A DNA stretch of 51,433 nucleotides from Eubacteriaceae bacterium. Its GTDB lineage: Bacteria; Bacillota; Clostridia; Lachnospirales; Lachnospiraceae. The position numbers were made by a program, and so were the translations under genes. Location: assembly GCA_910575665.1 (NCBI GenBank), contig CAJTFB010000030.1:1-51433 (forward strand), in the 5' to 3' direction. The notes beneath the pieces are model-generated. The model had not been told where the DNA came from. It searched no databases and was given only the letters and a program-made list of their open reading frames with translations. Shown one piece after another: positions 2,630-51,409 of the stretch; the stretch's first letter is position 1, and every line of letters starts with the position of its first letter.

Positions 2630-3920
2630 TAAAATAGAATATGATACAACAGAGAATATAAAATTGTTACAATCCAAACTATTGAGACAGACATTGAGGT
2701 ACGCCAATCGTTTTTCTCCATTTTATCATAATTTATTTAGCAGACATGAAATAAAGGTGAAAGATATCTTGAGCGTAGACTGTCTTGAATTGCTGCCATT
2801 GACAACAAAAGAGGATTTATTAAAATATAATAAAGATTTTTTTTGTTGTCATGATTGCTATGCTGATATTGTATCCACAAGTGGTTCCACGGGAGTGCAG
2901 CCGATCATTCACCCGTTATCTCAATGTGACTTGACGGGGCTAGCATATAATGAGTTTATAAGTTTTATGGAGCCGCCAGTAACTTCTAGTGATTATGTAA
3001 TGCTTGCAGTCGCGCTTGATGGAAGCTTTGTGGCAGGACTGGCTTATTATATGGGAATAAAAAGGCTGGGTGTATCCATTGTCAGAGCCGGGTCAAAAAA
3101 TATACATATACAGTATAAAATATTAAAAAATTTTCCTATAACTACTATTATTGGAGTGCCTTCAAATCTTATAAAATTGAGGGAATACTGTTTAAAGGAA
3201 GGGATGACAAATAGATTAAACAGTATAAATAAGTTAATATTAATTGGTGAAAGTATCAGAAACAAAGATTTTACATTAAATGAATTGGGTAAGAGAATAT
3301 CAGCATGTTATCCAAATGCTAACCTCTTTTCAACATATGCAAATACAGAAACATGTGTTTCGTTTTGCGAATGTAGTGCTGGGAAAGGAGGGCATCTTCA
3401 TCCCGATTTGGCATATATAGAGATCCTGGATAATGAAAATCGAAGAGTTAAAAATGGAGAAATAGGTAGATTGGTCATTACAACATTTGGGAATCAATCA
3501 ATGCCTTTAATAAGATATGATACTGGAGATGTAACATTTATCGCAGATGAGCCTTGTGAGTGTGGACGGACAAGTCGACGTATAGGCCCGATCCTAAGCA
3601 GGAAAAAGAATATTTTTAAAATTGGAGGAGTAACTTTTGGACAAATACAGTTAGAGAATATTCTATTATCTCACAATAGTGTGATAGATTATTGTGTAAA
3701 AATCCAATATGAAAGAGATGGTCTACCAACTGTTTCAGTTTGGGTTTCCTGTAAAGAAGAAAATAATAATGTGGCAAAACAAATTAGACAAAAAATATGG
3801 GAAGAACTAAGAATTATGGTTTGTGTATCATCCTGTTCAACTGAAGAACTAGTTAAAATACAGCAGAGTACCGGCTCAAGAAAATTAGTAAGGTTTATCA
3901 ATCTTTTGAATGAGGTATAA
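2622..3920 (+). CDS. PaaK-type AMP-forming acyl/aryl ligase
   Basis: This is an ANL-superfamily adenylating enzyme resembling phenylacetate-CoA ligase. The ATP loop reads STSGSTG (about residue 87). Later come YANTETCVSFCE, the hinge segment LIRYDTGDV, and the C-x-C pattern ECGRTSRRIGP that is typical of PaaK proteins, followed by KIGGVTFGQIQLE in the mobile C-terminal domain. The length of 432 residues is normal for the family. It overlaps the end of the ACP-fusion gene, so it probably activates a carboxylic acid as acyl-AMP and passes it to Ser240 of that carrier or to CoA; the substrate is unknown. ATG 2622 has GGTG seven bases upstream; ATG 2616 is an in-frame alternative. Confidence 0.75.
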   Translation: MNNKIEYDTTENIKLLQSKLLRQTLRYANRFSPFYHNLFSRHEIKVKDILSVDCLELLPLTTKEDLLKYNKDFFCCHDCYADIVSTSGSTGVQPIIHPLSQCDLTGLAYNEFISFMEPPVTSSDYVMLAVALDGSFVAGLAYYMGIKRLGVSIVRAGSKNIHIQYKILKNFPITTIIGVPSNLIKLREYCLKEGMTNRLNSINKLILIGESIRNKDFTLNELGKRISACYPNANLFSTYANTETCVSFCECSAGKGGHLHPDLAYIEILDNENRRVKNGEIGRLVITTFGNQSMPLIRYDTGDVTFIADEPCECGRTSRRIGPILSRKKNIFKIGGVTFGQIQLENILLSHNSVIDYCVKIQYERDGLPTVSVWVSCKEENNNVAKQIRQKIWEELRIMVCVSSCSTEELVKIQQSTGSRKLVRFINLLNEV

Positions 3921-4798: not shown

Positions 4799-5037
4799 CT
4801 ACTATCAAAATAAATATAAATCATTTATTAAGTTATGGAGATTTCTGCCATTGCGTATATCTCAATGGTTAGGGGGGGGTGGAAGTGGTTCTGTTAAGAA
4901 TGATTTAGGAGGTATTTGCGTTTACCATATATTGACAACTATGTTTATAGAGTGTATATTTAAAAGTGATAGAGTGTTCAAAGACATAGTTTTAAAAATG
5001 GTAATTTTAATTATTATTATGAAAAAAGGGTAATAAA

Positions 5038-6102
5038 ATGAATCTTATGGAAAAAATGATTTCTTTCCTTCTACCAAATGCAAATCCTTCCATTGTTTAT
5101 CGTATAAAAAAGGAAATTTTGCATGATATTAGTGAGGAAGAAGAAAATAAGTTACAAGAACTTATTTTATCAGAAAAAATAATTCAACTAATCGTTGCAT
5201 GCCAAAAAGAGAATGGTTGGTTAGGAAATGGGTATCATGGTTCAAATAAAAATGCTGGACGTTTTGAAAATCAAGAAACAGGTGTTAAATATCTTGCGGA
5301 AAAAGGTGTACATGGAGAGACAAATGTATTAAAAAAGGCGATGATTGCATTTAAGGAACTGCCTTTCTCAGATCCATGCTACAGTAGAAGTGCAGGTGAA
5401 ACAGGAGATGAATTCAGATATGCAGCTAATGGACATAATCTTTTTCGATGTGCCTGCATAGCACGTGCTGGGTTTGAGGATTTCATTGATATATTTCCAC
5501 AGATCAAATTGTCATTGGAATCATTCAAGCGAGTACTTGAGGTTGATTCTATCCTAGATGTTTCTCGTCTGATAACTAAGAAAAATGAGCGTGTTTTTAA
5601 CGAGTATGAAAAATGGCCTTGTCGATATCACTTAGATATTTTGGCTCATACTAATTCATGGAGGTCAAATGATTCTAGTTCTATGTTAGCTAAGTCGATT
5701 GAAAAAATGATGTGTAATGATCGACCTGAATTGTTTGGTTTGACTGCCTCCACCTGGGTTGGACATATACTTAGAACAGCTGGTTGTTTCCCTTCCCAGG
5801 GATTTAATCTTGTTGATGAGATAAATGGCGAATCACGTTATAATTTAGAATACTTAGTGTGGCTTGCAAAATGTGGAATTATTCCATATAGCCCCAAGCT
5901 ACAGGAGATTGTACAGAAAATAATGGAGAAAGTAAATGGAGACGGAATTTGTGAAATATCAGTAGATAATACCTTTAGAAATTGGGGACCTTATGGAGGC
6001 TTACAATTGGAGGTAGACTGGAAATCAAAAACAAGAAAGAATTGTGACATTACATTCCGTGTTTTGCAGTTATTCTATTATTCAGGACTAATGAGGTTAT
6101 AA
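5038..6102 (+). CDS. Alpha/alpha-toroid (prenyltransferase/terpene-cyclase-like) protein, copy 1
   Basis: This 354-residue soluble protein has no signal peptide. Its layout recalls the squalene-cyclase-like toroids of Firmicutes: an N-terminal NPSIVYRIKKEIL, then QKENGWLGNGYHG, and later helices with HLDILAHTNSWR, DEINGESRYNLEYLVWLAK, NWGPYGGLQLEVDW and DITFRVLQLFYYSG. The canonical cyclase DxDD motif is not seen, so catalysis is uncertain. The gene at 6956 is a diverged paralogue sharing the IxYRIxxEI, GWLGN and SWR blocks. The function is unknown; in this setting it may modify or bind a hydrophobic product of the ACP-dependent pathway. Confidence 0.5.
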   Translation: MNLMEKMISFLLPNANPSIVYRIKKEILHDISEEEENKLQELILSEKIIQLIVACQKENGWLGNGYHGSNKNAGRFENQETGVKYLAEKGVHGETNVLKKAMIAFKELPFSDPCYSRSAGETGDEFRYAANGHNLFRCACIARAGFEDFIDIFPQIKLSLESFKRVLEVDSILDVSRLITKKNERVFNEYEKWPCRYHLDILAHTNSWRSNDSSSMLAKSIEKMMCNDRPELFGLTASTWVGHILRTAGCFPSQGFNLVDEINGESRYNLEYLVWLAKCGIIPYSPKLQEIVQKIMEKVNGDGICEISVDNTFRNWGPYGGLQLEVDWKSKTRKNCDITFRVLQLFYYSGLMRL

Positions 6103-6103
6103 A

Positions 6104-6855
6104 ATGAAAAGTATACTTAAGGAAACAACACCAATAAAGTATAAGATTATAAGATTAGTGAAAAAAATTGGTTAGAGGTTTTACTAATAAGCATTATGGC
6201 GTTGTTAGTTTTCGTTAATTTAGATTGGAGATATTTTGCCTCTGATGAATCTTATAATGTCACAATGGGACAATATATATTAAAGAATCATGGTTTTCCT
6301 AAAATATGGGATGGAAAAAATATAATTACAACAATAAATGGAAACGATTTTAATGATGATTTAATTTGTATTAATCTTAATTATGGTGCTTATTATATAA
6401 CAGCTTTTATGCAACTTATTTTTGGTAAAAATACATATATCATACGTTTACCTTTTGCCTTTATGGGGATCTTTAGTGCAATAATATGGTTCAAATATTT
6501 TAAGATAGTTACCCAAACAGGTATTGCTAAAATTTTTCTTATAATTTATTGTTTATCAATTCCTTTAATAATTTATTTTAGAAATGCAAACTATTTTGCA
6601 CCAAGTCTTTTTTTTATGGGACTCATGTATTTATTTTATAAAAAAGGAGAAAAAGAATTGATATTTTGTCCAGATGAATTAGTAGATTGGGTAATTGTAT
6701 CGAATCCTTTAGTAGAAGAAAAAATAAACATTGTTAATAGAATTTATTTGGATCCTAATAAATATAAGAAAATTGTTTTAAAAACTAATTTATCAAATAT
6801 GGCAAATGATATTTGGTTATACAGTTTCGGACCTTATAAAAAAACGAAACTATAA
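6104..6855 (+). pseudogene. GT39/PMT-type glycosyltransferase remnant, frameshifted and internally deleted
   Basis: Reading from ATG 6104 gives MKSILKETTPIKYKIIRLVK, then an A7 run (6161-6167) and a stop. The neighbouring frame continues NWLEVLLISIMALLVFVNLD, a normal first membrane helix, so a frameshift at the A7 run splits the gene. The downstream frame has the family's acidic first-loop motif (FASDESYN) and several helices. After LMYLFYKKGEKELIF it jumps into what looks like the soluble tail of such an enzyme and ends after about 220 residues instead of the usual 450-600. The central helices are missing. Family: lipid-linked sugar transferases acting at the membrane. Probably non-functional. 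Confidence 0.6.
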
Positions 6856-6891
6856 TAATATATAGGAAATTAGTTTAAGTAATATATTTAG

Positions 6892-6919
6892 TTGACATAT
6901 ATATTTTGTTATGTATAAT
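6892..6919 (+). promoter_or_regulatory. Sigma-A-type promoter
   Basis: TTGACA (6892-6897) and TATAAT (6914-6919) match consensus exactly, separated by 16 bp and lying 36 bases before the start of the second toroid gene. This suggests that gene is transcribed independently of the damaged gene upstream. Confidence 0.7.
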
Positions 6920-6955
6920 ATAATATAAAAACCTATATCAGAAAGAAGCCTAAAA

Positions 6956-8005
6956 ATGAATAATGTTATACAATATTTAATAGACCATGGGGGTTGCAGC
7001 ATTCAATATAGAATAAGGCGTGAAATTTTTAAAGAAATTGCTTCAAGTAAAGACTTATTAAACTTGAAAGAGCAGATTATGGAAAAACCTAAAGTGAAAA
7101 AAATAATTGATCAAAGGCAAAGCGACGGATGGCTGGGTAATGAGTTACATGGAGGACCTGGCAAAGGGTTAGATTCTAGCGTTACTTTTTTGTTGAATTT
7201 TGGAGTGGAAAGGGACAGTTTATTCATGAAGGATGTTATAAAGGCATTACTTCAGGAAAAAAAAGAAACGTCTTACAGAACGACATTTAAGGGCGGCGAG
7301 GCGTTAGATTTGGGGGGACGAGGTGGAAATAAAGCAGTGAAGGCTGGAATATTGGCAGAACTAGGGGAAGAAAATAATTTATTAGTGCAAGATGAAATTA
7401 AAACTAGTCTATATTATTTTAGGGAATCGTTATTATATAATAATATTAATGACTTTTCCATGGTTAATAAAAAAGGAATCCGTTACTATAAGCCGGACGC
7501 TCACTTTCCGGGAAGTAATCATTTATTTTTATTAGCTCAAACTCAGAGTTGGCGTACAACTGATAATATTGAATTGATAAGAAATTCATTAAAACATTGT
7601 ATAAAGATTATGAGGGGAAATTCTCATGATATTATGTTTAATACTAGTTCATATTTTGTTGGTCCATTTAATTTCAACTGGAATTTCTATAATTTTGACA
7701 TAGACGAATTACATCAAGACTCTTATGCTTTAGTTTGGTGGTTGCGTAATTTGTTTAAATTATCAAAAATAGGAATGATTAACCAATTACCAGAACTGAA
7801 AAAAGCATATGATTATCTTTATCAATTAATCAAAAGTCGAGATATATTAGATAAACAAAATGAAGAGAGTCTAAAAAGGTATAAACAGATTTTATCAGTA
7901 GAGAATAATTGGAGGAGGAAGGAAAGTATTATTTGTGATGTTTTGTTTTATAGTATAATAAATTTACATAATGCAGGCTATGAGGTAAAAGAGATATCTT
8001 TTTAA
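6956..8005 (+). CDS. Alpha/alpha-toroid-like protein, copy 2
   Basis: The 349-residue product is a diverged paralogue of the 5038 gene: CSIQYRIRREIFKEI, QRQSDGWLGNELHGGPGKG, then HLFLLAQTQSWRTTDNIEL, NWNFYNFDIDELHQDSYAL and a C-terminal NNWRRKESIICDVLFYSI. Shared blocks keep the same order and spacing, which points to an old duplication or to partner subunits. No signal peptide, membrane segment or known catalytic motif was found. It has its own consensus promoter and a strong terminator 31 bases after the stop, so it forms a single-gene unit. Its function is unknown. Confidence 0.5.
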   Translation: MNNVIQYLIDHGGCSIQYRIRREIFKEIASSKDLLNLKEQIMEKPKVKKIIDQRQSDGWLGNELHGGPGKGLDSSVTFLLNFGVERDSLFMKDVIKALLQEKKETSYRTTFKGGEALDLGGRGGNKAVKAGILAELGEENNLLVQDEIKTSLYYFRESLLYNNINDFSMVNKKGIRYYKPDAHFPGSNHLFLLAQTQSWRTTDNIELIRNSLKHCIKIMRGNSHDIMFNTSSYFVGPFNFNWNFYNFDIDELHQDSYALVWWLRNLFKLSKIGMINQLPELKKAYDYLYQLIKSRDILDKQNEESLKRYKQILSVENNWRRKESIICDVLFYSIINLHNAGYEVKEISF

Positions 8006-8035
8006 AAGCAAAGGCAATGAATAATTGCTAGTCTC

Positions 8036-8067
8036 AAAACTGGTAATAGTAATATTACCAGTTTTTG
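8036..8067 (+). terminator. Rho-independent terminator
   Basis: A 12-bp perfect stem (AAAACTGGTAAT / ATTACCAGTTTT, loop AGTAAT) runs into a T-rich tract. It ends the unit of the second toroid gene. Confidence 0.85.
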
Positions 8068-8096
8068 TTGTTTTTATTTAATGGAGATGGTGTAAC

Positions 8097-8820
8097 ATGA
8101 AGCATAAATGGAATGATATAGTGGTTATAACAGACGTTAAATGGAGAAAAAGCTTATCAGCGATAAGAGCAATTGGAAAAAACAATTATTTTATTATCGC
8201 AATAGGAAATTCTGTATTTGATATGGGATTATGGTCATCCTATGTTGACAAGAGGGTGATTATACCAAATTTAATGAAAAATCAGGAAAAATACAAAAGT
8301 AAGCTGATAACAATCCTTGATCAGTGCTATAAAAGGTGGGGGAAAAAACCAATATTGTTTACGATGGAAGATATAACCTTAAAATTTCTTATAGAACATA
8401 GAAGTATTATAAACAAATGCAAATGCCTAATACCAGATTTAGAGTCATATAATATTGCTAATAATAAATTTGGAGCATTACAAACGGCGAAAGAACTGGG
8501 TATAGACATACCATATACAAAACAATTTGAGAATTTGTCTGACCTATTATTATTTATACAGTCTAATCCAAAAAGAAATTGGGTAGTAAAGCCGGAAGTG
8601 GGAAAAGGTTCATTTGGGGTAACATATGTTACTTCAAAACAAGATTTAGATATTATTAAGAAACATTGGAAGCAATATGGAAAACTTATTGTGCAGGACA
8701 GGATTCCTTTGAAAGGTGAAAGTATATGTGTGGCAATGATTTTTTCCAATAATAATAAGCTCAGTAATTATTTTGTTTATAAAAGATTACATACATATCC
8801 TATTAGAGGTGGGGCTAGCA
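8097..8820 (+). pseudogene. ATP-grasp ligase, C-terminus replaced by IS sequence
   Basis: The N-terminal ~240 residues belong to an ATP-grasp carboxylate-amine ligase. They include a pre-ATP domain (WSSYVDKRVIIPN, PILFTMEDI), then NNKFGALQTAKELGIDIPYT, the glycine loop VVKPEVGKGSFGVTYV and LIVQDRIPLKGESICV. The sequence is family-like through YKRLHTYPIRGG. It then enters IS256-derived sequence, and the frame runs on to 8882 with unrelated residues. The missing third would have carried the metal-binding Glu/Asn residues, so the product should be inactive. Such enzymes join a carboxyl group (via acyl-phosphate) to an amine and would fit a peptide- or amide-making pathway. RBS: GGAGATGG before ATG 8097. 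Confidence 0.7.
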
Positions 8821-8826
8821 CAAGCA

Positions 8827-9666
8827 GAATCGGAGTATCCAACAATAGTCTGGTACAGCACCGTCAGCCGCATTACGGATAAGATTATGCCTGTGGTAAG
8901 AGAATGGCAGGAACGCCCATTAGAAGAAATCTATGCGGTTGTTTTCATGGACGCTATCCACTATCATGTCCGAAGCGAAGGAAGGATTGTGAAACGGGCG
9001 GTTTATATTGCCCTGGGAATTGATATGAATGGACATAAAGATGTTTTGGGTATGTATGTAGGAGAAAATGAAAGTGCCAGGTTCTGGATGTCTATCATGA
9101 ATGGACTTAAGAATCGCGGAGTGGAAGATATCCTGATTGCCTGTGTGGATGGACTGACTGGATTTCCGCAGGCAATCGAAGCTGTTTATCCAGAAACAGA
9201 GATTCAACAGTGCCTCATCCACCAAATCCGAAATACAACCCGTTTTGTATCCTATAAGGATATAAAAAAATTGATGGCAGATCTGAAGCGTGTGTATGCA
9301 GCACCGACCGAAGAGACTGCACTGGACGAACTGGAATCCTTTCGTAATATATGGGATTCCCAATACCCTAAGATCAATAAATCATGGTATGAAAACTGGG
9401 CAACCCTGTCCACGTATTTCAAGTATCCGGAAGCGGTCAGACGTCTGATCTACACGACCAATGCCATTGAGGGGTTCAACCGCCAGCTGAGAAAGGTAAC
9501 GAAATCCAAGACGGTATTTCCGTCCGATGAGAGTCTGTTGAAAATGCTGTATCTGGCAATCATGGACATAACAAAGAAGTGGACAGGCCACCGACAGGAC
9601 TGGGGCCAGATCAATTCGCAACTTGAGATCTATTTTGAAGAACGGTTGGAAAACCGGTTGCTCTAA
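8827..9666 (+). pseudogene. IS256-family transposase, 5'-truncated
   Basis: About 280 C-terminal residues of an IS256/Mutator transposase remain: STVSRITDKIMPVVREWQ, FMDAIHYHVR (catalytic Asp), ACVDGLTGFPQAIEAVYP (second Asp), QQCLIHQIRNT and TTNAIEGFNRQLRKVTK (with the catalytic Glu). The N-terminal DNA-binding part, about 100-130 residues, is missing. Family alignment can be followed back to about 8827 (ESEY... aligned with the usual xELY...). The frame opens further upstream (8773), but those residues derive from the ATP-grasp gene and are not transposase. Without its DNA-binding region the product should be inactive. Confidence 0.8.
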
Positions 9667-9678
9667 GACCAGCTTTTA

Positions 9679-9706
9679 TTGACATGCAAAAAAATCCCTG
9701 TATAAT
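9679..9706 (+). promoter_or_regulatory. Promoter-like sequence after the transposase
   Basis: TTGACA (9679-9684), a 16-bp spacer and TATAAT (9701-9706) form a near-consensus sigma-A promoter in the right end of the IS remnant. It points toward the 3' end of the oppositely oriented xylanase gene. A hairpin starts only a few bases after the expected start site. Confidence 0.5.
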
Positions 9707-9712
9707 ACAGGT

Positions 9713-9748
9713 AAGAGCAGAACCTAGATTTTCGGCTCTGCTCTTTGT
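9713..9748 (+). terminator. Hairpin terminator in the IS right end
   Basis: AAGAGCAG (9713-9720) pairs with CTGCTCTT (9738-9745), followed by a short T run. It may stop read-through out of or into the element. Confidence 0.5.
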
Positions 9749-9831
9749 AACTATCAATGTATCTTATATCAGTTTTTGAGTTTACACAAAACTTGAAAGT
9801 CTTTCATGTTTGTTACACCAAGCCTGGCAGT

Positions 9832-12612
9832 TTACTGACCATTTTTCAGAATGTCATGGACATTTTTAAAGGAATCTTTTACTGCCAGATTTTCATTGAA
9901 TAAACCGCAGTATGGTCCGTTCATTTTAAAACTGTAGTCGTCAGGCTCCAGATCTGGTTCATCGATGATACCCCAGATGGAGATGGCCTTCAATGGTTTT
10001 TCTTCCCCAGAATTTAATTCCAGATATGCCTGGAATAGTTTTTTGTAGTACTCGCCGTGTTTTGCTAGCGTTTCGGCATCATTTTCATAATTTCGGACGG
10101 CAAGCTCTGTTACTTGTACTTCTATGCCCAGTGAAGCAAACTTGAGGATGGCTTCTTTCACTAAATTGATATCATTTTCGTTCATACATCCTGCTTGTTG
10201 TCCAAAACCGCCAATATAACTCTGCATGCCTACACCATCACAAAGTTTCACATATCCACCCTTGCCATCTGACAGGAAAGAATTGACGGAGCTTACCAAG
10301 TTGTAGATCGCATCCCTCTTTGAAGCAAAGAATGTACTATAATCGTTATAATACAACTTGATATCCAGTGTTGGCATGGTCTTCTTTAACTCTTGAAGAA
10401 CTTCGTAAGAATACTGGAAGGATAATTCCACATAATTGCGTCCTACCAATGTGTAAAACGGATTATCTTCATTATTTCGCTTGGTTCTTACATGGCGATC
10501 GTCGCCTTCTTCATATTCTGTGGCGGAATCACCTACTGCCTCGTTGACGACGTCCCAGCAGTAAATCACGCCTGGGTATTTTTCTTCAAAATGTGTCAGT
10601 ACTTGTTCTATGTAGTTCTGTAGTCTCGCCTTTACTACCTCTGTTGTGGCATATGGTTTTGAAGAATCGTATCCTTCACGGAAGAACCAGTCCAGCATAC
10701 CCGCATCCCAGACAAGGGCGTGGCCGCGAACCTTTATATTGTTTGCTTTGGCGAAATCCATAATTTTATCGGCTCCGGTGAAACTCAGAACAGGCATGGA
10801 ATTCTCGTCGGTGTAGGCTTCCTTTGTTTTATTCAGATCCAGCATGGAGTATGCTTTCATCTCATTTGCAGCCGTAATACTGTTGAAGTGATATTTCATT
10901 AAGTCAGCATATTTTTTATCTGCCACTCTTCGGTCGTTCATGACAGTACCCATTTTCAAACCATAGGCGGCGGCCATCTCTGCCAATGAAGTATAGTTAT
11001 TCATGGCATCCGTGGTATCTCTTGTATCCTTTATAAAGGAGATGGAATGAATGGTCAGGTTAATTTCTTCCGGAAGATCCGCAGATCCCCCTGGATTGTA
11101 TTTTACTCCAAAGCCGAGGGTATTGTTTACGGTACTCAGGTCACAGATGTATTCCTTCTGTTCTGTAGTGACACTTGTAAAAGACAGTGTTGTTGAAGAG
11201 TTTGATCCCCAATAATCGGTAGTGTCATGGGTCCTCAGACAGATCGGCGCATCAACATCGGCGGATAGATTGAAAATCACTTTTGTATAATCACTTAAAT
11301 CCACCATGGATTTGGAAGCATCCATATAGAAGCCAATTCCGCCCCCGCCATATTGTTTCTTCAGTGTTACGGTAACACTGCCGTCAGCATTATAGACAGG
11401 CTCACCAGCTGCTCCGGATGCAAGGAAAGTATCTTTAGAAAAAGTCATAGATGCCTCTGGTGCCATTGTTACCAATGGTTTATCCGTCGCTATCGGCGTT
11501 TTCGTTGGCTGTGAGCTGGCTGTCGGTGTAGGTAATGCCGTTGGTTTCGCTTTTGGAACCACAAAAGCCAGTTTTGTCAAAGTGGCAGTAGCTGTCTGCG
11601 TCGTATCTTTGATATTAGTATTTGTCATTATAGAGTACTGGCTTATGGTCTTATTCTTGTATTCATTCGGAATTGTTATGGAATGGGTCCCTGTTGCTTT
11701 GTTATACTGTGTTATACCCGTCAGTTCTTTTCCTTCGGAATCATATAACTTAAAGGATACGGAATCCGGTGTTCCCTTTACGGAGAGTGTGAACTCCACG
11801 CTTTCAATACCGTTTAGGGAAATAGGGGATGCCAGAAGGAAATCTGCCTGGCTGTACTGGGTGGAAGCCTTGAACTCTGTCACGGCTCCTGCTGCACCTA
11901 CCGATGCGCTCACACTGGCAGAAGTTCCCTTTACTTTGGATCCTTCAATCGCATTATCAGGGATCTGGGATGGCGCTAACGGAGTGGCTGTCGGAACAGC
12001 AGTAGGGGAAGTGGTTGGCTTCGCTGTTGGGGTTGTCGTCGGTTTTCCAGTTGGCTCTGCCGTTGGTTCTTCTGAAGAAGCCGCTGGCGGAGTTACCGTC
12101 GGAACTACTGTTGCAGTTGCTGTCGGAATCGCTGTCGACACTCCAGGTGTGCCCCCGGTTGGCGTACTCTGAGGGACGTCTGGGTTATTTGGCGCCTGTG
12201 TAACAGTATCGGCTGATGGCGCCGGCGGAACAGTCATATTAGGTGTTTGTGTCACTTTCTTTGTGGCAGATACGGTTACCTTACAGGTCAACGTACGACG
12301 TGTCTTACCCTTTTTTGTTGTCGCCGTGATCTTCACTGTGCCCTTTTTCTTCGCCGTAATCTTTGCTGCATATTTCCCAGCCTTTTTTACAGTAGCAATT
12401 TTTTTATTTTTACTCTTCCAGGAAATTTTCCAGCCTTTTGCCCGTTTTACCGAGAGTTTCGCTGTTTTTCCTACTTTAATGGAAAGCTTTTTTTTGCTTA
12501 AAGCTGGTTTTTTTGCTTTTGCCTGCACAACTGTGGATACCGGAGACAAAACACTGCTCACCAATAACGCAGCTGTACATACAAGTGATGTGATTTTTAC
12601 GCTTTTTTTCAA
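9832..12612 (-). CDS. Secreted endo-1,4-beta-xylanase, GH10, multidomain
   Basis: This enzyme hydrolyses xylan backbones outside the cell. In order: a signal peptide (about residues 1-32), a very lysine-rich Ig-like module (to about 115), a Pro/Thr linker rich in PTATPT, a beta-sandwich module that may bind carbohydrate, a second linker, another such module (MTFSKDTF... to ...HSISFIKD), and the GH10 barrel. The acid/base Glu691 (DVVNEAV) and nucleophile Glu836 (VTELAV) are present. The start is set at TTG 12612, because GGGAGGT sits seven bases upstream and the ATG 21 bases further up would include that ribosome site. It is monocistronic, with its own divergent promoter. The 3' end abuts the IS256 remnant. 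Confidence 0.9.
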   Translation of the reverse strand: MKKSVKITSLVCTAALLVSSVLSPVSTVVQAKAKKPALSKKKLSIKVGKTAKLSVKRAKGWKISWKSKNKKIATVKKAGKYAAKITAKKKGTVKITATTKKGKTRRTLTCKVTVSATKKVTQTPNMTVPPAPSADTVTQAPNNPDVPQSTPTGGTPGVSTAIPTATATVVPTVTPPAASSEEPTAEPTGKPTTTPTAKPTTSPTAVPTATPLAPSQIPDNAIEGSKVKGTSASVSASVGAAGAVTEFKASTQYSQADFLLASPISLNGIESVEFTLSVKGTPDSVSFKLYDSEGKELTGITQYNKATGTHSITIPNEYKNKTISQYSIMTNTNIKDTTQTATATLTKLAFVVPKAKPTALPTPTASSQPTKTPIATDKPLVTMAPEASMTFSKDTFLASGAAGEPVYNADGSVTVTLKKQYGGGGIGFYMDASKSMVDLSDYTKVIFNLSADVDAPICLRTHDTTDYWGSNSSTTLSFTSVTTEQKEYICDLSTVNNTLGFGVKYNPGGSADLPEEINLTIHSISFIKDTRDTTDAMNNYTSLAEMAAAYGLKMGTVMNDRRVADKKYADLMKYHFNSITAANEMKAYSMLDLNKTKEAYTDENSMPVLSFTGADKIMDFAKANNIKVRGHALVWDAGMLDWFFREGYDSSKPYATTEVVKARLQNYIEQVLTHFEEKYPGVIYCWDVVNEAVGDSATEYEEGDDRHVRTKRNNEDNPFYTLVGRNYVELSFQYSYEVLQELKKTMPTLDIKLYYNDYSTFFASKRDAIYNLVSSVNSFLSDGKGGYVKLCDGVGMQSYIGGFGQQAGCMNENDINLVKEAILKFASLGIEVQVTELAVRNYENDAETLAKHGEYYKKLFQAYLELNSGEEKPLKAISIWGIIDEPDLEPDDYSFKMNGPYCGLFNENLAVKDSFKNVHDILKNGQ

Positions 12613-18092: not shown

Positions 18093-18779
18093 ATGTCAGA
18101 ACAATTTTCCAGGACCGGGCTTCTTTTAGGGGAGGCTGCGTTACTGAAACTTTCCGAGAGCCGGGTGGCAGTGTTTGGAGTGGGAGGAGTCGGCGGCTAT
18201 GTGGTGGAGGCGCTGGCGAGAAGCGGGGTGGGAGCCCTTGATCTGGTCGATCATGACAGAGTCAGCCTGTCGAATATCAACCGGCAGATTATAGCCTTGC
18301 ATTCTACAGTTGGTGAATACAAGGTAGATGTGATGAAGGACCGTATCGCGGATATCAATCCGGCGTGCCATGTCCTGGCCCGCAGATGTTTCTTTCTGCC
18401 GGAGACCAGGGATGAGTTTGATTTTTCAGATTATGATTATGTGGTGGATGCGGTGGATACGGTGACTGCTAAGATTCAGCTTGTACTGCAGGCGAAGGAG
18501 GCAGGGGTTCCGGTGATCAGCAGCATGGGCGCCGGCAACAAACTGAATCCGGCGGAATTTGAGGTGGCAGACCTTTACCGTACTTCTGTATGCCCTCTGG
18601 CGAGAGTGATGCGGCGGGAGCTGAAAAAGCGGGGAGTGGAGAAGCTGAAGGTGGTTTACTCCAAAGAGGAGCCAAAAGACTGCGGCGGGCAGAGAGTGCC
18701 TGGATCCACGGCATTTGTGCCATCGGTGGCGGGCCTGATCATCGCCTCCGAGGTGGTGAAGGATCTGGTGTACTGCTAA
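18093..18779 (+). CDS. tcdA: tRNA threonylcarbamoyladenosine dehydratase (TcdA family)
   Basis: This E1/ThiF-like enzyme cyclises t6A37 of tRNA to ct6A using ATP. Visible are the nucleotide-binding GVGGVGGYVVEALARSGVG, the following VDHDRVSLSNINRQIIAL (E1-type Arg/Asp residues), DAVDTVTAKIQLV, and a C-terminal YSKEEPKDC...GSTAFVPSVAG segment typical of TcdA/YgdL. The 228-residue length suits the bacterial form lacking the extra C-terminal membrane helix. RBS: GGAGGAG before ATG 18093. It follows metY by 13 bases and is probably cotranscribed. A strong hairpin follows. Confidence 0.9.
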   Translation: MSEQFSRTGLLLGEAALLKLSESRVAVFGVGGVGGYVVEALARSGVGALDLVDHDRVSLSNINRQIIALHSTVGEYKVDVMKDRIADINPACHVLARRCFFLPETRDEFDFSDYDYVVDAVDTVTAKIQLVLQAKEAGVPVISSMGAGNKLNPAEFEVADLYRTSVCPLARVMRRELKKRGVEKLKVVYSKEEPKDCGGQRVPGSTAFVPSVAGLIIASEVVKDLVYC

Positions 18780-18807
18780 GAGACAGCGGTCATCTTTTTT
18801 AATAAAA

Positions 18808-18846
18808 CAGGGAGAGTGTGACTCATTTCGAGTCACACTCTCCCTG
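18808..18846. terminator. Bidirectional terminator, 17-bp stem
   Basis: A perfect 17-bp stem with an ATTTC loop lies between the convergent tcdA gene and the minus-strand surface-protein gene. The T tract is better on the minus-strand side, where CTG is followed by TTTTATT. Confidence 0.85.
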
Positions 18847-18902
18847 GTTTAGAACTCTTATTTTCAACAGCCCATGAACGCCAGAAAATATTTGACTGAA
18901 TA

Positions 18903-21900
18903 TCAAGAGGCTGCTGAAGCTGAAATACATTTCACTTTAAACTCATAAAAGTCATCTTCGGTCACATAAACTTTGATGGTATCAATGTCGCCTGCCTTGG
19001 TGTTTGCAGCAGCTTCAATTGCAAAGCTGCCCGACGTTGTTGGAAATGTCAAAGTGCCATCTATGTTGAAGAGACCCTTGGATGAAATTACTGTAAAGAG
19101 AGGAGTCTTATCATATGTATCACCGTACTGATCCTCTGCGACGAGCTTAAAGGTAGTTGGCCCTGAAATTTCTGCTGTTTTGTTATCAAGGTAATTAACA
19201 ATAGGATTATCCTTATCTTTAATAATCTGATATTCTCCTTGTGGAATAGCAGGTTTATTGCTGACTTTTATGCTCCGCACCTTCGCTGATAGTGTTTTTT
19301 CTCCTGAAACATATGTTAGGGAGACCGTTGCAACATCATCGATTGGGCTCGTTGAACCAGAGGAGGATTTGAAGGTGAAGATGTTTTTATTAGAATCTAC
19401 TGTTGCTTGCACCGTGTTTGGAGCTGTTACCTTCCATATTAAGTTATTGGCAGCGAAGACTGGGTTACTGTCAAAATTTTTCCATGCTACTTTTATGTCT
19501 TCTCCCTGATAGCGTGTATACATTTCGCAGTCAAAAGTTAACTTGGTGCCAGAATCTGTAAGGTTTACATAATGGCTGTCCAGAGAGATTTCCTGACTTG
19601 TAGTTGGTTTGGCAGTCGGTGATATAGGTGTCTTAACGGCCGTATCAGAAATCTCTATCTTCTCGAGAAGGTTATCTGCTGAGTCTACCAGCAGTTTATA
19701 ACTTCCCCCCACGGGTGGCTTATTATCATCATACCCAGGATCAGAGTCATCAGGTCCCAGATAAGCCAGAATTGTATATTCTTTGTTAGTGTTTTGGAGT
19801 TTGGAACTAATTGTTATGTCAATGTTTGCTGGCAGTCTAGTGTTGGGAGATATTGGACTTGGCGTAGAGAAATCAAGATCCGTTGTTTCAATCTTTTGGT
19901 TATTTTTATCCCGCACTTCAAAATATATCTTCTGATCCGATGGTACAGTTTGTACTTCCGCCCCGTACTGGTCAAAAAGTTTTACTGTATTTGAAACTTT
20001 TGCCCCTGGTAGTGCCGCCTGGACATGGCTGCCCAACTCGATTCTGCTGGCTCTTGCTGCTGAATTTACTGGAACCTGGTATGATTTTGCCATAAAGTCA
20101 TCTCTATTGCTCGTAAAGTTTATGTTTAATATTTCGCCCGAACTTGGAGCAGTGGTTGATCCTGTTGTAGCCCAACTCAAACCGATGGCGCCGATTTTGT
20201 CAGTATCCTCAGGCGTAGGTACTATAGGCGATTTTTCACCAACATTTTTGTACCATTCCGCATTAAGTTTAAAGTCGGATGCATTTTTACCATTGACAGT
20301 AATTTTCAAGTTTGCAGCAGAGACATCCCCGCTTGTAAGCACATCATACTTATTTCCGTATTGGTCATATGCCTGCACTGGGATATAAAGAATAGCTGTT
20401 GAATCCAGTATCAGTCCGTCGTCTATCGACATTGTCCCAAAACGGATTTCTTTGATGTGGGCTTTTTCTACAACCGTCACATTTATCTTTGCGTTTACAG
20501 AGGGGTCTGTTGGCAGCGACAGAGTGACTTCTGATGTTCCTTGATTTAGTGTATCAAGCGTGAGCGTACCGGCAGCATCTCCAGTTCCTGTCGTTGCTGA
20601 TCTTATAACAGATGGATCTGAAATTTTGCATTCTGGCTGTGCTGCTATCCGTTTCGTGATGTCTTCGCCATAGCGGTTTCGGATCTGGTAGGTGGTGGTG
20701 GCGGTCTTTTCAGCTGTGACAGCGTTTGCTTCGAAGTCATCAATCTCGATTTTTGAAGCGGAGAGGGACGGTGTGGATGTATAGGTGATCTCTTCTGACT
20801 CGATTCCGTCGCTGCAGACAACAAAACGAATTGGTGCATCACTGCCGTCAGTCGCCGCCGTTATGTTGATATAAATTCCGTCGCTTTCTTGAACAAAGAC
20901 AAGTTCCTTAAGGCGCTCGGCGCCTTCTGTCACCCGGTACTCTAAGTCATCCTCTGTAAGTCCGGTTCCAGCAGGGGTCAGTGTGATTTTTGCTTCGCTC
21001 ATCTTTCCGTTTGTTCCATCACCGGGATCTGCTACAGTGATTTCACGGAGGTTTGTGGACTTGATTGTCACCGTGATGGGGAAGGACTCGGAGTCATCTG
21101 AAGCCAGATACGCGGTAATTGTTGTTGTGCCGCCTTTGAGCGCCCGCACAGTCACTGGCTGGCTGGATGTACTGATTCCATCAGAATCTGATCCATCTGT
21201 ATCGGAGAAGGCGAGTATGCTCCCATCCTCGATCTTATAAGTGACGTCTGACGGATCTGCTTCATATCCAAACTTATCCAGAAGTTTGGAAGAGAGGGTA
21301 AATACATTTTCTTTTTCTGTGCCGCTAAGCTGGAATACTGGTTTGTCGGCGGAGCCGCTAATATTATCCATCGTTTTGCTTGTGGCATTTAGTCCGGCAA
21401 TTTTTACTGCCTTTCCTATGTCCGATGCGTCCACAAGTGTAATTGTCATAGTTTCCTCAATGACTTTTTTATCCGATACAGAATAGGTTAAAGCAATTTT
21501 GATTTTTCTCCCCTCTGTAAAGGCGCTGGCAGAACCAGAAACCCTGACATATCCTTCCTGCTGATTTACCTGAGCCTTAAAAGGCATACCGTTTTCTGTC
21601 TGGGCAGATGCGGTAAATGTGCCTTTTGAAATAACATCCAGGCTGCCGTATTCTTCCCCATACTGGTCGACAACAGAAAAATAAACATTGAAGGAAGATT
21701 GTCCTGCCGGCACCTGCTCTGTCTTGCACAAGAACCCTTTTGGATCACTTGTTTCTCTTTCTACAGATATGCGGCTGTTTTCTTCCATTTTGTTGCCGGC
21801 GGGATCCTCCAGTCCATTGACCGTGAGCTCGTAGATGCCTGCACTCAGTGCATTCCGGCAGGTTATGACCAGGCTTGTTCCATTTGCTGACAGTGTCTGG

Positions 21901-22931
21901 GAGGCACACTCTACTCTTGTGTTATCTTTAGTTTTTACGGTTACAGATGGCGTCCCTGTTACCGGTTCGCTGAAAGCGACAAAAAATGTTCTGCCATCAC
22001 TTAACTCTGCGCTCTCAATAAATGGCTTTTTGGTATCTACCGTGACAGTACATGGCTGTGAAGTTACATGATTCACTGTCGCTGTGATATGGGCGGTGCC
22101 ATCTCCGGCCGCTGTTACGATTCCATCCTTTACGGCAGCAACATTTTCATTATCTGAGGTCCAGGTAATAGTCTGGTTATCCAATGAATTACCGTTCTTG
22201 TCTTTTGCCGTTGCTGTCAGGACAATGGTATTTCTATCCTGTTCCATGCTGAGCAGTGCTTCCGCGGCACTCAAATCGACTTCTGTTACAGTAGAGTCAT
22301 CGGGGATATCTGGTGTAGAAGTCGGTTCCTGTGACTTATCTGGATCTGCTGTCTCGCCGGGCCCCGGAGTTCTGTCTGGATCTGGTGTATCCGCCGGTTC
22401 TGGTGTGTCAGCAGGATCTTCGGTGACCACCGGCTGAGAAGGGGGCGCTGGCATTGTTGTGTAAATAATTAGTGGTGTCTGAGCCGGCTCCGTATTGACT
22501 GGCGGTGTTTTTGCAGGGGCAGCTTCCTTGGAAGTTACCTTGCAGGTGAGTTTTGCCGTCCTTATCGACCATTTTCCCATGGGAACGTATTTGACAGTAG
22601 CCGTGATGGTAGCTGTCCCTTTCTTTTTGGCAGTCAGTCTAACAGAAGTGTCTTTTTTTCTGCTAAGAGCAACCACGCTTTTTTTACTCGTCTTCCACGT
22701 GGTTTTCACAAGGGTTTTTACCTTGTTTTTTTTCAGTTTTAAGGTATAATTTTTGCTGCCTGACTTATTCCAGTACAATGTCTTTTTTTTCACACTAAGT
22801 GTGGGTTTCTTTTTGCCTGCCGCCTCAGAAGAGGGTGCCTGGGCAAGTGAGGACAATGCTAGAGCGGCGGCCATGGCACAGGCTATGCCGCGTCTGAATG
22901 TCCCTGTTGTTTTTTGAATCCGTTTACGCAT
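18903..22931 (-). CDS. Large secreted Ig-like/DQYG-repeat surface protein, probably phase-variable
   Basis: The 1342-residue product has a signal peptide (about 1-38, ending SSEAAG) and a lysine-rich Ig-like module (KKKPTLSVKKK ... LTCKVT). A Pro/Asp-rich linker follows (TPEPADTPDPD), then a Big_2-type domain (VTEVDLSAAEALLS ... CTVTV) and a Big_5-like domain (FFVAFSEPVTG ... GLEDPAGN). After these come about seven beta-sandwich repeats, many opening with a DQYG-like motif (VDQYGEEYG, YDQYGNKYD, FDQYGAEVQ, EDQYGDTYD). No LPxTG, SLH or membrane anchor is seen at the C-terminus. This looks like an adhesin or S-layer-like protein. RBS AAGGAGG precedes ATG. Upstream lies an inverted-repeat-flanked segment and then a tyrosine recombinase, suggesting ON/OFF control by promoter inversion. 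Confidence 0.8.
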   Translation of the reverse strand: MRKRIQKTTGTFRRGIACAMAAALALSSLAQAPSSEAAGKKKPTLSVKKKTLYWNKSGSKNYTLKLKKNKVKTLVKTTWKTSKKSVVALSRKKDTSVRLTAKKKGTATITATVKYVPMGKWSIRTAKLTCKVTSKEAAPAKTPPVNTEPAQTPLIIYTTMPAPPSQPVVTEDPADTPEPADTPDPDRTPGPGETADPDKSQEPTSTPDIPDDSTVTEVDLSAAEALLSMEQDRNTIVLTATAKDKNGNSLDNQTITWTSDNENVAAVKDGIVTAAGDGTAHITATVNHVTSQPCTVTVDTKKPFIESAELSDGRTFFVAFSEPVTGTPSVTVKTKDNTRVECASQTLSANGTSLVITCRNALSAGIYELTVNGLEDPAGNKMEENSRISVERETSDPKGFLCKTEQVPAGQSSFNVYFSVVDQYGEEYGSLDVISKGTFTASAQTENGMPFKAQVNQQEGYVRVSGSASAFTEGRKIKIALTYSVSDKKVIEETMTITLVDASDIGKAVKIAGLNATSKTMDNISGSADKPVFQLSGTEKENVFTLSSKLLDKFGYEADPSDVTYKIEDGSILAFSDTDGSDSDGISTSSQPVTVRALKGGTTTITAYLASDDSESFPITVTIKSTNLREITVADPGDGTNGKMSEAKITLTPAGTGLTEDDLEYRVTEGAERLKELVFVQESDGIYINITAATDGSDAPIRFVVCSDGIESEEITYTSTPSLSASKIEIDDFEANAVTAEKTATTTYQIRNRYGEDITKRIAAQPECKISDPSVIRSATTGTGDAAGTLTLDTLNQGTSEVTLSLPTDPSVNAKINVTVVEKAHIKEIRFGTMSIDDGLILDSTAILYIPVQAYDQYGNKYDVLTSGDVSAANLKITVNGKNASDFKLNAEWYKNVGEKSPIVPTPEDTDKIGAIGLSWATTGSTTAPSSGEILNINFTSNRDDFMAKSYQVPVNSAARASRIELGSHVQAALPGAKVSNTVKLFDQYGAEVQTVPSDQKIYFEVRDKNNQKIETTDLDFSTPSPISPNTRLPANIDITISSKLQNTNKEYTILAYLGPDDSDPGYDDNKPPVGGSYKLLVDSADNLLEKIEISDTAVKTPISPTAKPTTSQEISLDSHYVNLTDSGTKLTFDCEMYTRYQGEDIKVAWKNFDSNPVFAANNLIWKVTAPNTVQATVDSNKNIFTFKSSSGSTSPIDDVATVSLTYVSGEKTLSAKVRSIKVSNKPAIPQGEYQIIKDKDNPIVNYLDNKTAEISGPTTFKLVAEDQYGDTYDKTPLFTVISSKGLFNIDGTLTFPTTSGSFAIEAAANTKAGDIDTIKVYVTEDDFYEFKVKCISASAAS

Positions 22932-22983
22932 CTTTTTCCTCCTTATAATTTTTTACTGAAATAAAATTTATATCAGTTGTGTG

Positions 22984-23182
22984 ACTATTCTACTACATTA
23001 GAAAGAGGATTCATGGGATATATGGCAGCAGGTTTAGAGAATCAAGAATCATATTAGCATCAATAGAGCTAAACTATGTATAAATTAAATTTATAAGTAT
23101 TTAAGTGTATATCTGGTCAATGAAATTTGACGGATATACTCTTTTTTTAGTTGCATTTTTCTTACTAATGTAGTAGAATAGT
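22984..23182. repeat. Invertible promoter element: inverted repeats flanking a ~155-bp segment
   Basis: ACTATTCTACTACATTAG (22984-23001) recurs as its exact reverse complement CTAATGTAGTAGAATAGT (23165-23182). Counting inward, the match extends to 22 bp per arm (22984-23005 and 23161-23182) with one mismatch. The arms enclose AT-rich, non-coding DNA. The left arm ends about 50 bases from the start of the large surface protein, and a tyrosine recombinase gene begins about 60 bases beyond the right arm. Size, arm length, position and neighbours all match recombinase-controlled phase-variable promoters of gut Firmicutes. The arms are too far apart for an intrinsic terminator. Confidence 0.75.
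23090..23120 (-). promoter_or_regulatory. Candidate promoter inside the invertible segment
   Basis: On the minus strand, TTGACC (23120-23115) is followed after 19 bp by TATAAA (23095-23090); TTATAA with 18-bp spacing is also possible. In the present orientation it points at the surface-protein gene; after inversion it would point into the recombinase gene as antisense. The spacing is long, so this is the weakest part of the switch model. Confidence 0.4.
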
Positions 23183-23243
23183 AAACCATTTTGTAAATCC
23201 CTGTAAAATCAAGGTTTTTCTTTCCTGAAAAATTTTTTTGCAA

Positions 23244-24338
23244 TTAAAATGCAACTGTTTTTGTCAAATTCTGTTGTCCCATTCCCAGATTTTCCAACGA
23301 AGAGATTAAAGCCATCTGCTTATTTGGAAATAGATGTGCATAGGTATTTAGAGTTGTTGATACATTTTCATGACCCACCCGTTCTGCAATCACCAGGGCA
23401 TCGAATCCCTGATCAATCAGAAGAGATACATGGGAATGACGGATATCGTGGACACGAATTTTTTTAACGCCTGTCTTTTTGCAGCCACGCCGTATCTCAT
23501 AATTTAAAAAAGCTTTACTGAATGGGAAAAATCTTTCACTCCCCGCATCATAGTCTGGACCGCTCCGATACTCCTGCAGTTCTTTACATAAAAAATCCGG
23601 AATGGGAATCCGTCTTCTGCTTTTTCTGGTCTTCGGTGAGGTAATGATATCCTTTTTCTCAAGACGCTGATAAGATTTACTGATAAAAAGCTCCTTTTTT
23701 TCAAAGTTGATATCCTGTTCAGAAAGCGCCAGCAGTTCTCCCTCTCTTATGCCTGTCCAATAGAGCACGTCAAAACAGATCAGGGAATTTCTTTTGTCCA
23801 TAATTCCTTCCCGAAAAGCTAAGAATTCCTCCAGCGTCCAGAACTGCATTCTTTCTGCCCGGCTTGCGCCAATGCTTCCCGCCTGCTCGCAGGGGTTTGA
23901 TTCCAGATTGTAATATTTGCGGGCAAAATTAATAATGGCGGACAACTGGTTGTTAATGGTCTTTAAATATGTCTTTGAATAACTGTGCTCGGATTCCAAT
24001 AGAGAATTTTGCCATTTCCTGATATCGGCGGCCTGGATTTCATTGACCGGCTTTTTTGCAAAATAAGGAAGTATCTTTGTTTCGCAGATGTTTTTCTTTG
24101 TTAAGATGGAGGAGTACTTAAGGCGCACGGACATTTCTTCTATATAAATGTAGTATAGATTCTCAAATAAGATATCCTGGCTGAATGACTTCCTCTGTAA
24201 AAAGTTTCTTTCAAATGCTTGCGCTTCCTTTTTTGTATCAAAGCCCCTTTTCCATTTTTGTTTTAACACTCCACTCCAGTCTTTGTAATAAAATTTGCAG
24301 TACCATGTTCCATTGTTTTTGTCCTTGTAAGCTGGCAT
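23244..24338 (-). CDS. Tyrosine recombinase, probable DNA invertase of the adjacent switch
   Basis: The 364-residue phage-integrase-type recombinase has an N-terminal Arm-DNA-binding domain (NGTWYCKFYYKDW ... GFDTKKEAQAFE), a core-binding domain (about 60-150) and a complete catalytic domain. Catalytic residues are Arg198 (TGIREGE), a Lys in SPKTRKSRR (about 236), His297 and Arg300 (HDIRHSH), His323 (GHENVSTT) and nucleophile Tyr333 (NTYAH). RBS AAGGAG precedes ATG. No excisionase, phage or conjugation genes are adjacent, which argues against an ordinary prophage. Its position beside the inverted repeats suggests that it inverts the promoter segment. Confidence 0.9.
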   Translation of the reverse strand: MPAYKDKNNGTWYCKFYYKDWSGVLKQKWKRGFDTKKEAQAFERNFLQRKSFSQDILFENLYYIYIEEMSVRLKYSSILTKKNICETKILPYFAKKPVNEIQAADIRKWQNSLLESEHSYSKTYLKTINNQLSAIINFARKYYNLESNPCEQAGSIGASRAERMQFWTLEEFLAFREGIMDKRNSLICFDVLYWTGIREGELLALSEQDINFEKKELFISKSYQRLEKKDIITSPKTRKSRRRIPIPDFLCKELQEYRSGPDYDAGSERFFPFSKAFLNYEIRRGCKKTGVKKIRVHDIRHSHVSLLIDQGFDALVIAERVGHENVSTTLNTYAHLFPNKQMALISSLENLGMGQQNLTKTVAF

Positions 24339-24393
24339 AATTAGATCATCTCCTTTATTTTAATAAGTATCTATTATATTTATGTATCAAAAA

Positions 24394-24407
24394 TTGTGTG
24401 GCTATTC
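24394..24407 (+). repeat. Partial copy of the inversion-site flank
   Basis: TTGTGTGGCTATTC matches TTGTGTGACTATTC at 22977-22990 (13 of 14), which overlaps the outer part of the left inversion arm. The two copies are direct repeats on either side of the recombinase gene. They could be a degenerate recombinase binding site or an old attachment site, or chance. Confidence 0.3.
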
Positions 24408-24519
24408 AATCCCTATAAATCTTTAAAAATACACCAGGGTGTGTTTGATGATTTGAATTTATTAATTTCGGTGCCGCTAAGCTGTTTAGTATGCTACTAT
24501 TTTGCTACGAATTATTTAG

Positions 24520-24654
24520 ATCTATAGATATAAAGAAAGACCATACTATGATGTTGACAAGGAGAGCTGGCTATGGTATTTTGAGGAGAAGAAAGCAGAA
24601 ATGGATAGTGGCGGTAAAGAAATGTTCTATTCATGGTTTTTTGCGAATGGATGA
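24520..24654 (+). pseudogene. 3' remnant of an unidentified gene
   Basis: This is a 44-codon open stretch without a usable upstream start. It follows a TAG at 24517-24519 and ends at TGA 24654. Its composition looks like real protein (DVDKESWLWYFEEKKAEMD, then GGKEMFYSWFFANG). It starts close to where the AT-rich recombinase upstream region ends, so it may be the tail of a gene cut when the recombinase/surface-protein cassette arrived. I do not recognise the family. The rest of 24339-24692 holds only the recombinase's 5' region. Confidence 0.35.
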
Positions 24655-24692
24655 AAATAAGAATTAAAGCTTTTCCGGGAAGGACAGGGACA

Positions 24693-51207: not shown

Positions 51208-51230
51208 ACTGTGAGTGCGGCGGGCAAATT

Positions 51231-51357
51231 ATAATTAAAACACCAGCATGCACCGAAGGTGTTCCATGAGAGCCACCGCACTGTTTGCAAGCAAGCTTGC
51301 ACAGTGCGGTGGCTCTCATGGAAAAGATTGCGAAGCAAATACTGGTGTTTTCATTAT
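51231..51357. repeat. Large hairpin-forming inverted repeat
   Basis: Nested arms: ATAAT/ATTAT and AAAACACCAG/CTGGTGTTTT outside (51231-51246 and 51342-51357), and a perfect 21-bp pair inside (51264-51284 and 51301-51321; the arms begin CCATGAGAGCCACC and end GGTGGCTCTCATGG). The loop TTGCAAGCAAGCTTGC can itself fold. It could be a REP/MITE-like element, a structured RNA or the yebC terminator. Nothing coding is seen between 51208 and the end. Confidence 0.7.
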
Positions 51358-51409
51358 AAAAAAGAACGACATAAGAGCGGTAAACGACATGAGTACACTA
51401 TGGAAGAGC

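Follow-up and report, generated by a model that had tools for sequence, protein, structure and literature searches.

In a stretch of DNA from a Eubacteriaceae bacterium (Lachnospiraceae; 51,433 nt, contig CAJTFB010000030.1 of assembly GCA_910575665.1; hereafter the window), a tyrosine recombinase gene and the gene for a giant S-layer-like surface protein flank a short segment enclosed by an inverted repeat. From the comparison of this locus with its relatives, we propose, with a probability of about 80%, that it is a phase-variation inversion switch for the surface protein, operated by the linked recombinase. The recombinase would bind both 23-bp arms of the repeat and reversibly invert the segment between them, and inversion would alter transcription of the surface gene. 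Within a clone, the S-layer-like protein would then be made at one level in some cells and at another in the rest.

Read along the minus strand, the recombinase gene is followed by a gap of 61 nt between its stop codon and the first arm, by 153 nt of enclosed DNA, by the second arm and by a leader of 52 nt that ends at the ATG of the surface gene (Table 1). All but one of the 23 arm positions pair, and a run of 18 bp (22984-23001 and 23165-23182) is perfect. An earlier annotation, drawn from the letters of this DNA without database searches (the sequence-only reading), had placed the same repeat between a surface gene of 1342 residues and a complete tyrosine recombinase gene on the same strand, and our measurements bear it out. 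The repeat scores 20, against a maximum of 14 among 2000 dinucleotide shuffles of positions 22932-23243, and it exceeds all other inverted repeats of the window with an inner distance of up to 700 nt. The runner-up, with a score of 15, lies close to the end of the window (51229-51246 and 51342-51359; 18 nt, with 95 nt between). Elsewhere in the same genome, five sites resemble the arms, each with three mismatches, compared to nine for a reversed-pattern control, and further arm copies were therefore rejected as not credible. Since no copies beyond chance occur outside the locus, the recombinase appears to be dedicated to the switch. A search for the arms with their spacing in 397 genomes of the family returned the window's own only; this sample included a single other member of the genus, so the result says little about the genus. 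The arm pattern had no match in viral contigs.

Table 1. Features of the switch locus and its surroundings, in window coordinates
Feature	Position	Strand	Basis or remark
Stretch present in the window, absent between the same flanking genes in relatives	18770..24661	.	approximate ends
Giant secreted S-layer-like surface protein, 1342 amino acids (aa)	18903..22931	-	open reading frame, Pfam, structure model
Leader between surface-side arm and ATG	22932..22983	-	ribosome site AAGGAGG; 32/52 positions invariant across 5 loci
Surface-side inverted-repeat arm	22984..23006	+	kept in 4 relatives
Inner segment, predicted to invert	23007..23159	.	enclosed by arms; middle fast-evolving
Terminator-like hairpin followed by T run (predicted)	23103..23148	+	-15.1 kcal/mol; 0/300 shuffles as good
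Place of internal promoter-like pair	23104..23133	-	TTGTCA-18-TATATT/TATACT in L026, L027 and L031; degenerate CCGTCA-18-TACACT in the window
Promoter-like pair TTGCAT-17-TAGAAT	23151..23179	+	spans recombinase-side arm
Recombinase-side inverted-repeat arm	23160..23182	-	repeat search, arm comparison
External promoter-like pair TTTACA-18-TACTAT	23178..23207	-	upstream of, and reaching into, recombinase-side arm; unaltered by inversion
Tyrosine recombinase, 364 aa, integrase type of phages and integrative and conjugative elements (ICEs)	23244..24338	-	Pfam domains, catalytic residues, tree; putative role in switch

The same anatomy is conserved in five species. A scan of genome contigs for recombinase relatives returned 28 loci, and the 27 other than L053 were then searched for repeats. 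Four of these 27 (L026, L027, L028 and L031, from genomes G015, G027, G026 and G036 of the same genus; recombinase identity 88-92%) have the window's repeat immediately after the recombinase gene. The order of recombinase, repeat and surface gene is kept in all four, with inner lengths of 132-156, and contig ends interrupt the surface gene in L027 and L028. In a tree of 31 recombinases, the five from switch loci form a single clade (support 100/100), which groups with a set of 64% identity (L029, L030 and L062; support 97/94). Neither L029 nor L030 has the switch repeat, and L062 has no repeat of any kind. Within the genus, recombinase matches at E ≤ 1e-150 occur in 7 of 39 genomes, namely the window's own, those of the four switch relatives, G016 and G028; in the last two, at 64-65% identity, the switch repeat was not found. 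A derivation of the arms from an attachment site of the 64% relatives, through the motif GTGTGGCTACTAC in L029 and L030, was considered and rejected, as the likeness is weak and absent from the four switch relatives. Other repeats occur near recombinase relatives: with scores of at least 13 and all with different arms in L030, L033, L038 and L051, and as a perfect 21-bp inverted repeat in L061 (G016:C81; 1653-1673 and 1798-1818, with 124 bp between). The arms of the latter are unrelated to those of the window, and it sits upstream of a recombinase relative of 65% identity, on the other side of the gene compared to the window.

Across the five switch loci, 18 of 23 positions are invariant in one arm and 19 of 23 in the other, compared to 32 of 103 in the middle of the segment. 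At arm positions 2 and 11 the window differs from its four relatives, and within each genome the two arms carry the identical base. Such concerted change at two of seven variable positions has a probability of about 0.0007 if two changes per arm are placed at random and independently. Position 11 lies mid-arm, and strand exchange requires sequence identity in the middle of the arms. The ratio of nonsynonymous to synonymous substitution rates is 0.053-0.086 for the recombinase (10/10 pairs) compared to 0.249-0.456 for the surface gene (6/6 pairs), values which indicate strong purifying selection on the recombinase and divergence of the surface gene. Together with the repeat kept in 4/4 relatives, the two concerted arm positions and the association of the three parts in one cassette (below), this selection supports the part of the sequence-only reading that proposed recombinase-linked inversion next to the surface gene.

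The recombinase is complete, with the Pfam domains Arm-DNA-bind_4, Phage_int_SAM_3 and Phage_integrase all above cut-off. Five residues (R198, H297, R300, H323 and Y333), which we take to be catalytic, do not vary across the 17 sequences aligned, and the presence of arm-binding, SAM-like and catalytic domains with these candidate residues places the enzyme among the ICE/phage integrases. Against the NCBIfam models for XerC and XerD it scores 53.5 and 39.5 (cut-offs 335 and 330), and its match to the XerA model is also far under cut-off. Solved relatives found by sequence include the integrase 3nkh and, with E = 4.7e-10, the Int of 6emy, presumably that of Tn1549. The genome has 17 other places that match the recombinase, the top five at 46-52% identity. 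Alongside these five closest paralogs (L002-L006) no comparable repeat was found, the best scoring at most 13 versus 20 at the switch, and L003 having none of at least 12. Relatives occur in 601 plasmid and 2335 phage records, all below 60% identity (best 52% and 54%, respectively). The absence of other phage genes nearby, as noted in the sequence-only reading, holds for the 20 further genes of the window that were run against Pfam, smaller open reading frames not having been scanned. No transfer, replication or phage gene was found among them; 16 match families that are not of mobile elements, and four match no family. GCAACT(G)-like sites occur three per locus at similar places around the arms in all five switch loci (23251-23256, 23149-23154 and 22975-22980 in the window) and might serve the arm-binding domain of the recombinase as accessory sites.

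The surface protein begins with a signal-peptide-like sequence (judged by eye) and a Lys-rich N-terminal part and contains Ig-like β domains, for which Pfam matches Big_2 at 25.0 bits, over its cut-off of 22.8, and Big_1 at 28.9, short of its cut-off of 34.9. A structure model of residues 200-760, built from a four-sequence alignment, is almost wholly β (mean predicted local distance difference test 65.4; predicted template modeling [TM] score 0.37). The best solved match of this model in Foldseek is the S-layer protein SbsC (E = 5.9e-13, with a TM-score of only 0.18), and animal Ig arrays rank behind it. The TM-scores are low because the modelled arrangement of domains is unreliable, and "S-layer-like" is accordingly used here for a predicted resemblance. 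Pfam revealed no cell-wall anchor in the protein and, at E 0.001, no PF04122 cell-wall-binding motifs. Relatives at E ≤ 1e-20 are encoded in 8 of 39 genomes of the genus, including three (G021, G035 and G037) that have no ortholog of the recombinase. The relatives in these three (L087-L090; 32-36% identity) have no adjoining recombinase gene and, by eye, two follow a helix-turn-helix-like gene and two a KsgA-like gene.

Judged from the alignments, recombinase, repeat and surface gene are one cassette found at differing chromosomal loci. When nucleotides are compared, the window and the relatives' loci are alike over these three parts and over little beyond them. In the window the cassette is flanked by a ThiF-family gene and an ATP_bind_3 gene, the latter presumably TilS-like. 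Seven of the 34 matches to the ATP_bind_3 gene within the genus were examined, and in all seven relatives this site is empty: blocks aligning to the two flanking genes lie 51-65 nt apart in five (L093-L097) and 169 and 526 nt apart in L098 and L099. In G036, G015 and G026, the three relatives with long enough contigs, the cassette instead adjoins purA-like and nuclease-like genes (by eye), and in G016 purA-like and purB-like genes are adjacent with no cassette between. The purA-like site of the window's own genome (L152, G000:C4:108000-125000, approximately 5266-10610) was rejected as a clean empty site, since it is filled by two-component and ABC transporter-like genes (by eye) and retains a fragment of the nuclease-like neighbour.

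How inversion would act on transcription can be read in more than one way, and here we slightly favour a polarity in which the present orientation of the window is ON and the flipped orientation OFF. In the ON state, transcription of the surface gene would start either at an internal promoter or at the external promoter-like site, reading through the segment; in the OFF state a terminator hairpin would intervene, as proposed for cwpV of Clostridioides difficile. The predicted hairpin points away from the surface gene at present and would point towards it if the segment were flipped, so that in the window a putative terminator faces the gene in one orientation only; in the four relatives it is weak or absent. 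Promoter-like pairs were scored with informally compiled matrices, for which the best scores of shuffled sequences had a median of 7.6, a 90% quantile of 9.6 and a 97.5% quantile of 11.2. The external pair occurs at the same place in all five loci (with TATTAT in three) and scores 7.1 in the window, under the shuffle median. The sequence-only reading had instead described an invertible promoter that is ON now, through a TTGACC/TATAAA promoter inside the segment. This promoter, with a spacer of 19 nt, was not confirmed, as its score of 6.4 is under the shuffle median. A tentative version of its idea remains, in which an inner promoter alone drives the surface gene now and faces away when flipped, the hairpin being incidental. 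In three relatives (L026, L027 and L031) a better internal pair at the matching place scores 10.0-10.9, above the 90% but below the 97.5% quantile, as this version would predict; however, the pair is degenerate in the window and both degenerate and off-register in L028.

The flip would also carry a further promoter-like pair, TTGCAT/TTGCGT-17-TAGAAT, round towards the surface gene; it would then span the surface-side arm, and its -10 would lie some 60 nt upstream of the ATG. On this basis the polarity could be reversed, the flipped orientation being ON with the hairpin as an insulator and the assembled one OFF, with the pair yielding RNA antisense to the end of the recombinase gene. We consider this somewhat unlikely. 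All five loci carry the pair, and the published genome orientation of cwpV is OFF (PMC2784873), but the scores of the pair (8.4 in the window, 9.6 in three relatives and 5.3 in L028) fall inside the shuffle range, and its -10 sits in an arm that is conserved anyway. As the promoter-only and reversed-polarity proposals are both versions of a switch, the confidence given to each overlaps with that in the inversion switch as a whole. Given the strong hairpin in the window and the better internal pair in the relatives, the segment may act via a terminator in the former and via a promoter in the latter.

Several results weigh against an inversion switch. The orientation of the segment is identical in all five assemblies, an outcome with a chance of 1 in 16 if both orientations were equally likely, and because of this uniformity the inversion itself is something we infer. 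No promoter-like pair exceeds the 97.5% shuffle quantile, and a simple scan returned the external pair as the sole promoter site, compared to 1.7 expected in shuffles. The same scan reported no terminator, not even the hairpin described above. For the present orientation the window offers a weak hairpin of -5.6 kcal/mol at best (none in a second scan with fewer stem lengths), and in the flipped relatives the best inner hairpins reach -9.5 (L028), -5.6 (L027), -1.6 (L031) and -0.1 kcal/mol (L026). The other five variable arm positions (4, 18, 19, 22 and 23) are not concerted, and the concerted changes at positions 2 and 11, both of which preserve Watson-Crick pairs, could also arise in a base-paired RNA stem. 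The repeat might not recombine, being either a long hairpin of the leader RNA or an attachment site left over from an integrative element that is no longer active. In line with this, the segment folded with its arms greatly exceeds shuffled sequences in stability (z = -7.2), and by eye the surroundings of L029 and L030, in the set of 64% identity, resemble a mobile element. We nevertheless regard it as improbable, given the purifying selection on the recombinase, the presence of the repeat in all five members of the recombinase clade and the lack of mobile-element families among the scanned neighbours. Furthermore, two inverted recombination sites lead to inversion rather than excision.

Returning to the inversion switch, a bolder and still less probable extension is that a mobile-element integrase was turned into a self-contained, relocating switch cassette that still moves itself and its passenger, and whose segment was rewired between sister species from promoter inversion to terminator inversion. 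The least probable proposal is a minimal mobile element, whose recombinase would in addition carry its own gene and the surface gene from site to site. The different sites occupied in the window and in 3/3 relatives, and the empty site in seven others, would fit such movement; however, the borders show by eye neither direct repeats nor clean attachment-site ends, and homologous recombination or rearrangement predicts the same pattern.

Related arrangements were seen at other loci. In L091 (G035:C27:39000-46000), a 35-nt inverted repeat (3585-3619 and 4870-4904; 33/35 paired, as reckoned from its score) encloses a different tyrosine recombinase gene of 321 aa, located between two divergent surface-protein-like genes. 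By its layout, this seems to be a cassette that inverts itself and could alternate between these two genes. In L051 (1371-3338), from a metagenome-assembled genome of Roseburia hominis, several related inverted repeats lie either side of the gene for a recombinase relative of 38% identity, and in L049 (320-3818), near a contig end, an 833-aa secreted-looking gene (by eye) is directly followed by a recombinase of the same family.

A literature search returned no title on this locus; invertible promoters are reportedly the subject of a 2019 paper in Science. If the proposal is true, the locus would be a compact phase switch for an S-layer-like protein in gut Clostridia, with its own linked recombinase recruited from mobile-element integrases. 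The differing loci, with an inner segment that is terminator-like in one and promoter-like in others, would form a natural series for studying the origin of a switch and a change in its mechanism.

The closest known counterpart is C. difficile cwpV. There, a segment of 195 bp is bounded by imperfect 21-bp repeats that lie 57 bp ahead of the start codon; the promoter is outside the segment, and transcripts made in the OFF orientation are proposed to form a terminator (PMC2784873). The switch is inverted by RecV, a member of the XerC/XerD family identified among seven candidate recombinases tested in E. coli. The window shares the imperfect repeats of about 20 bp, the segment of roughly 150-200 bp placed 52-57 bp before the start of a giant surface-protein gene and, by prediction, the terminator hairpin facing the gene in one orientation. 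In contrast, its recombinase adjoins the switch and is an integrase type with an arm-binding domain, its surface protein differs from CwpV in lacking detectable PF04122 motifs, and its external promoter-like pair is a candidate only. In the E. coli fim switch (FimB/FimE), as summarized in the same study, the promoter is carried inside the segment. Both would have linked recombinase genes, likened here by description, and, ahead of the gene for a surface structure, a short segment able to invert, whereas the candidate promoter of the window may lie inside or outside its segment.

The inverted repeats around a short segment before a gene that mark an inverton are present in the window. In gut Clostridia (PMC11892184), invertons are linked to tyrosine-type recombinase/integrase genes, as in inverton group 139 with invertase group 35, and 32 of the 33 invertons of this group are from Clostridia. 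A genome-wide survey describes inversions near surface genes in several species (PMC5903667). By description, the window resembles group 139 in that its inverted repeats are short and accompanied by a gene for a recombinase/integrase of the tyrosine type; those invertons were detected by reads in both orientations, whereas inversion in the window is predicted. From the ICE/phage integrases of the Tn916/Tn1549 type, whose Arm-DNA-bind, SAM-like and catalytic domains it shares, the recombinase differs in its scanned neighbours, which lack mobile-element families, and in that it would act on a fixed inverted pair. Given the cwpV-like geometry and the known invertons of Clostridia, the switch therefore looks like a member of an already known kind, the recombinase-linked, CwpV-like inverton, of which it would be a new, self-contained example with an integrase-type rather than a Xer-type recombinase.

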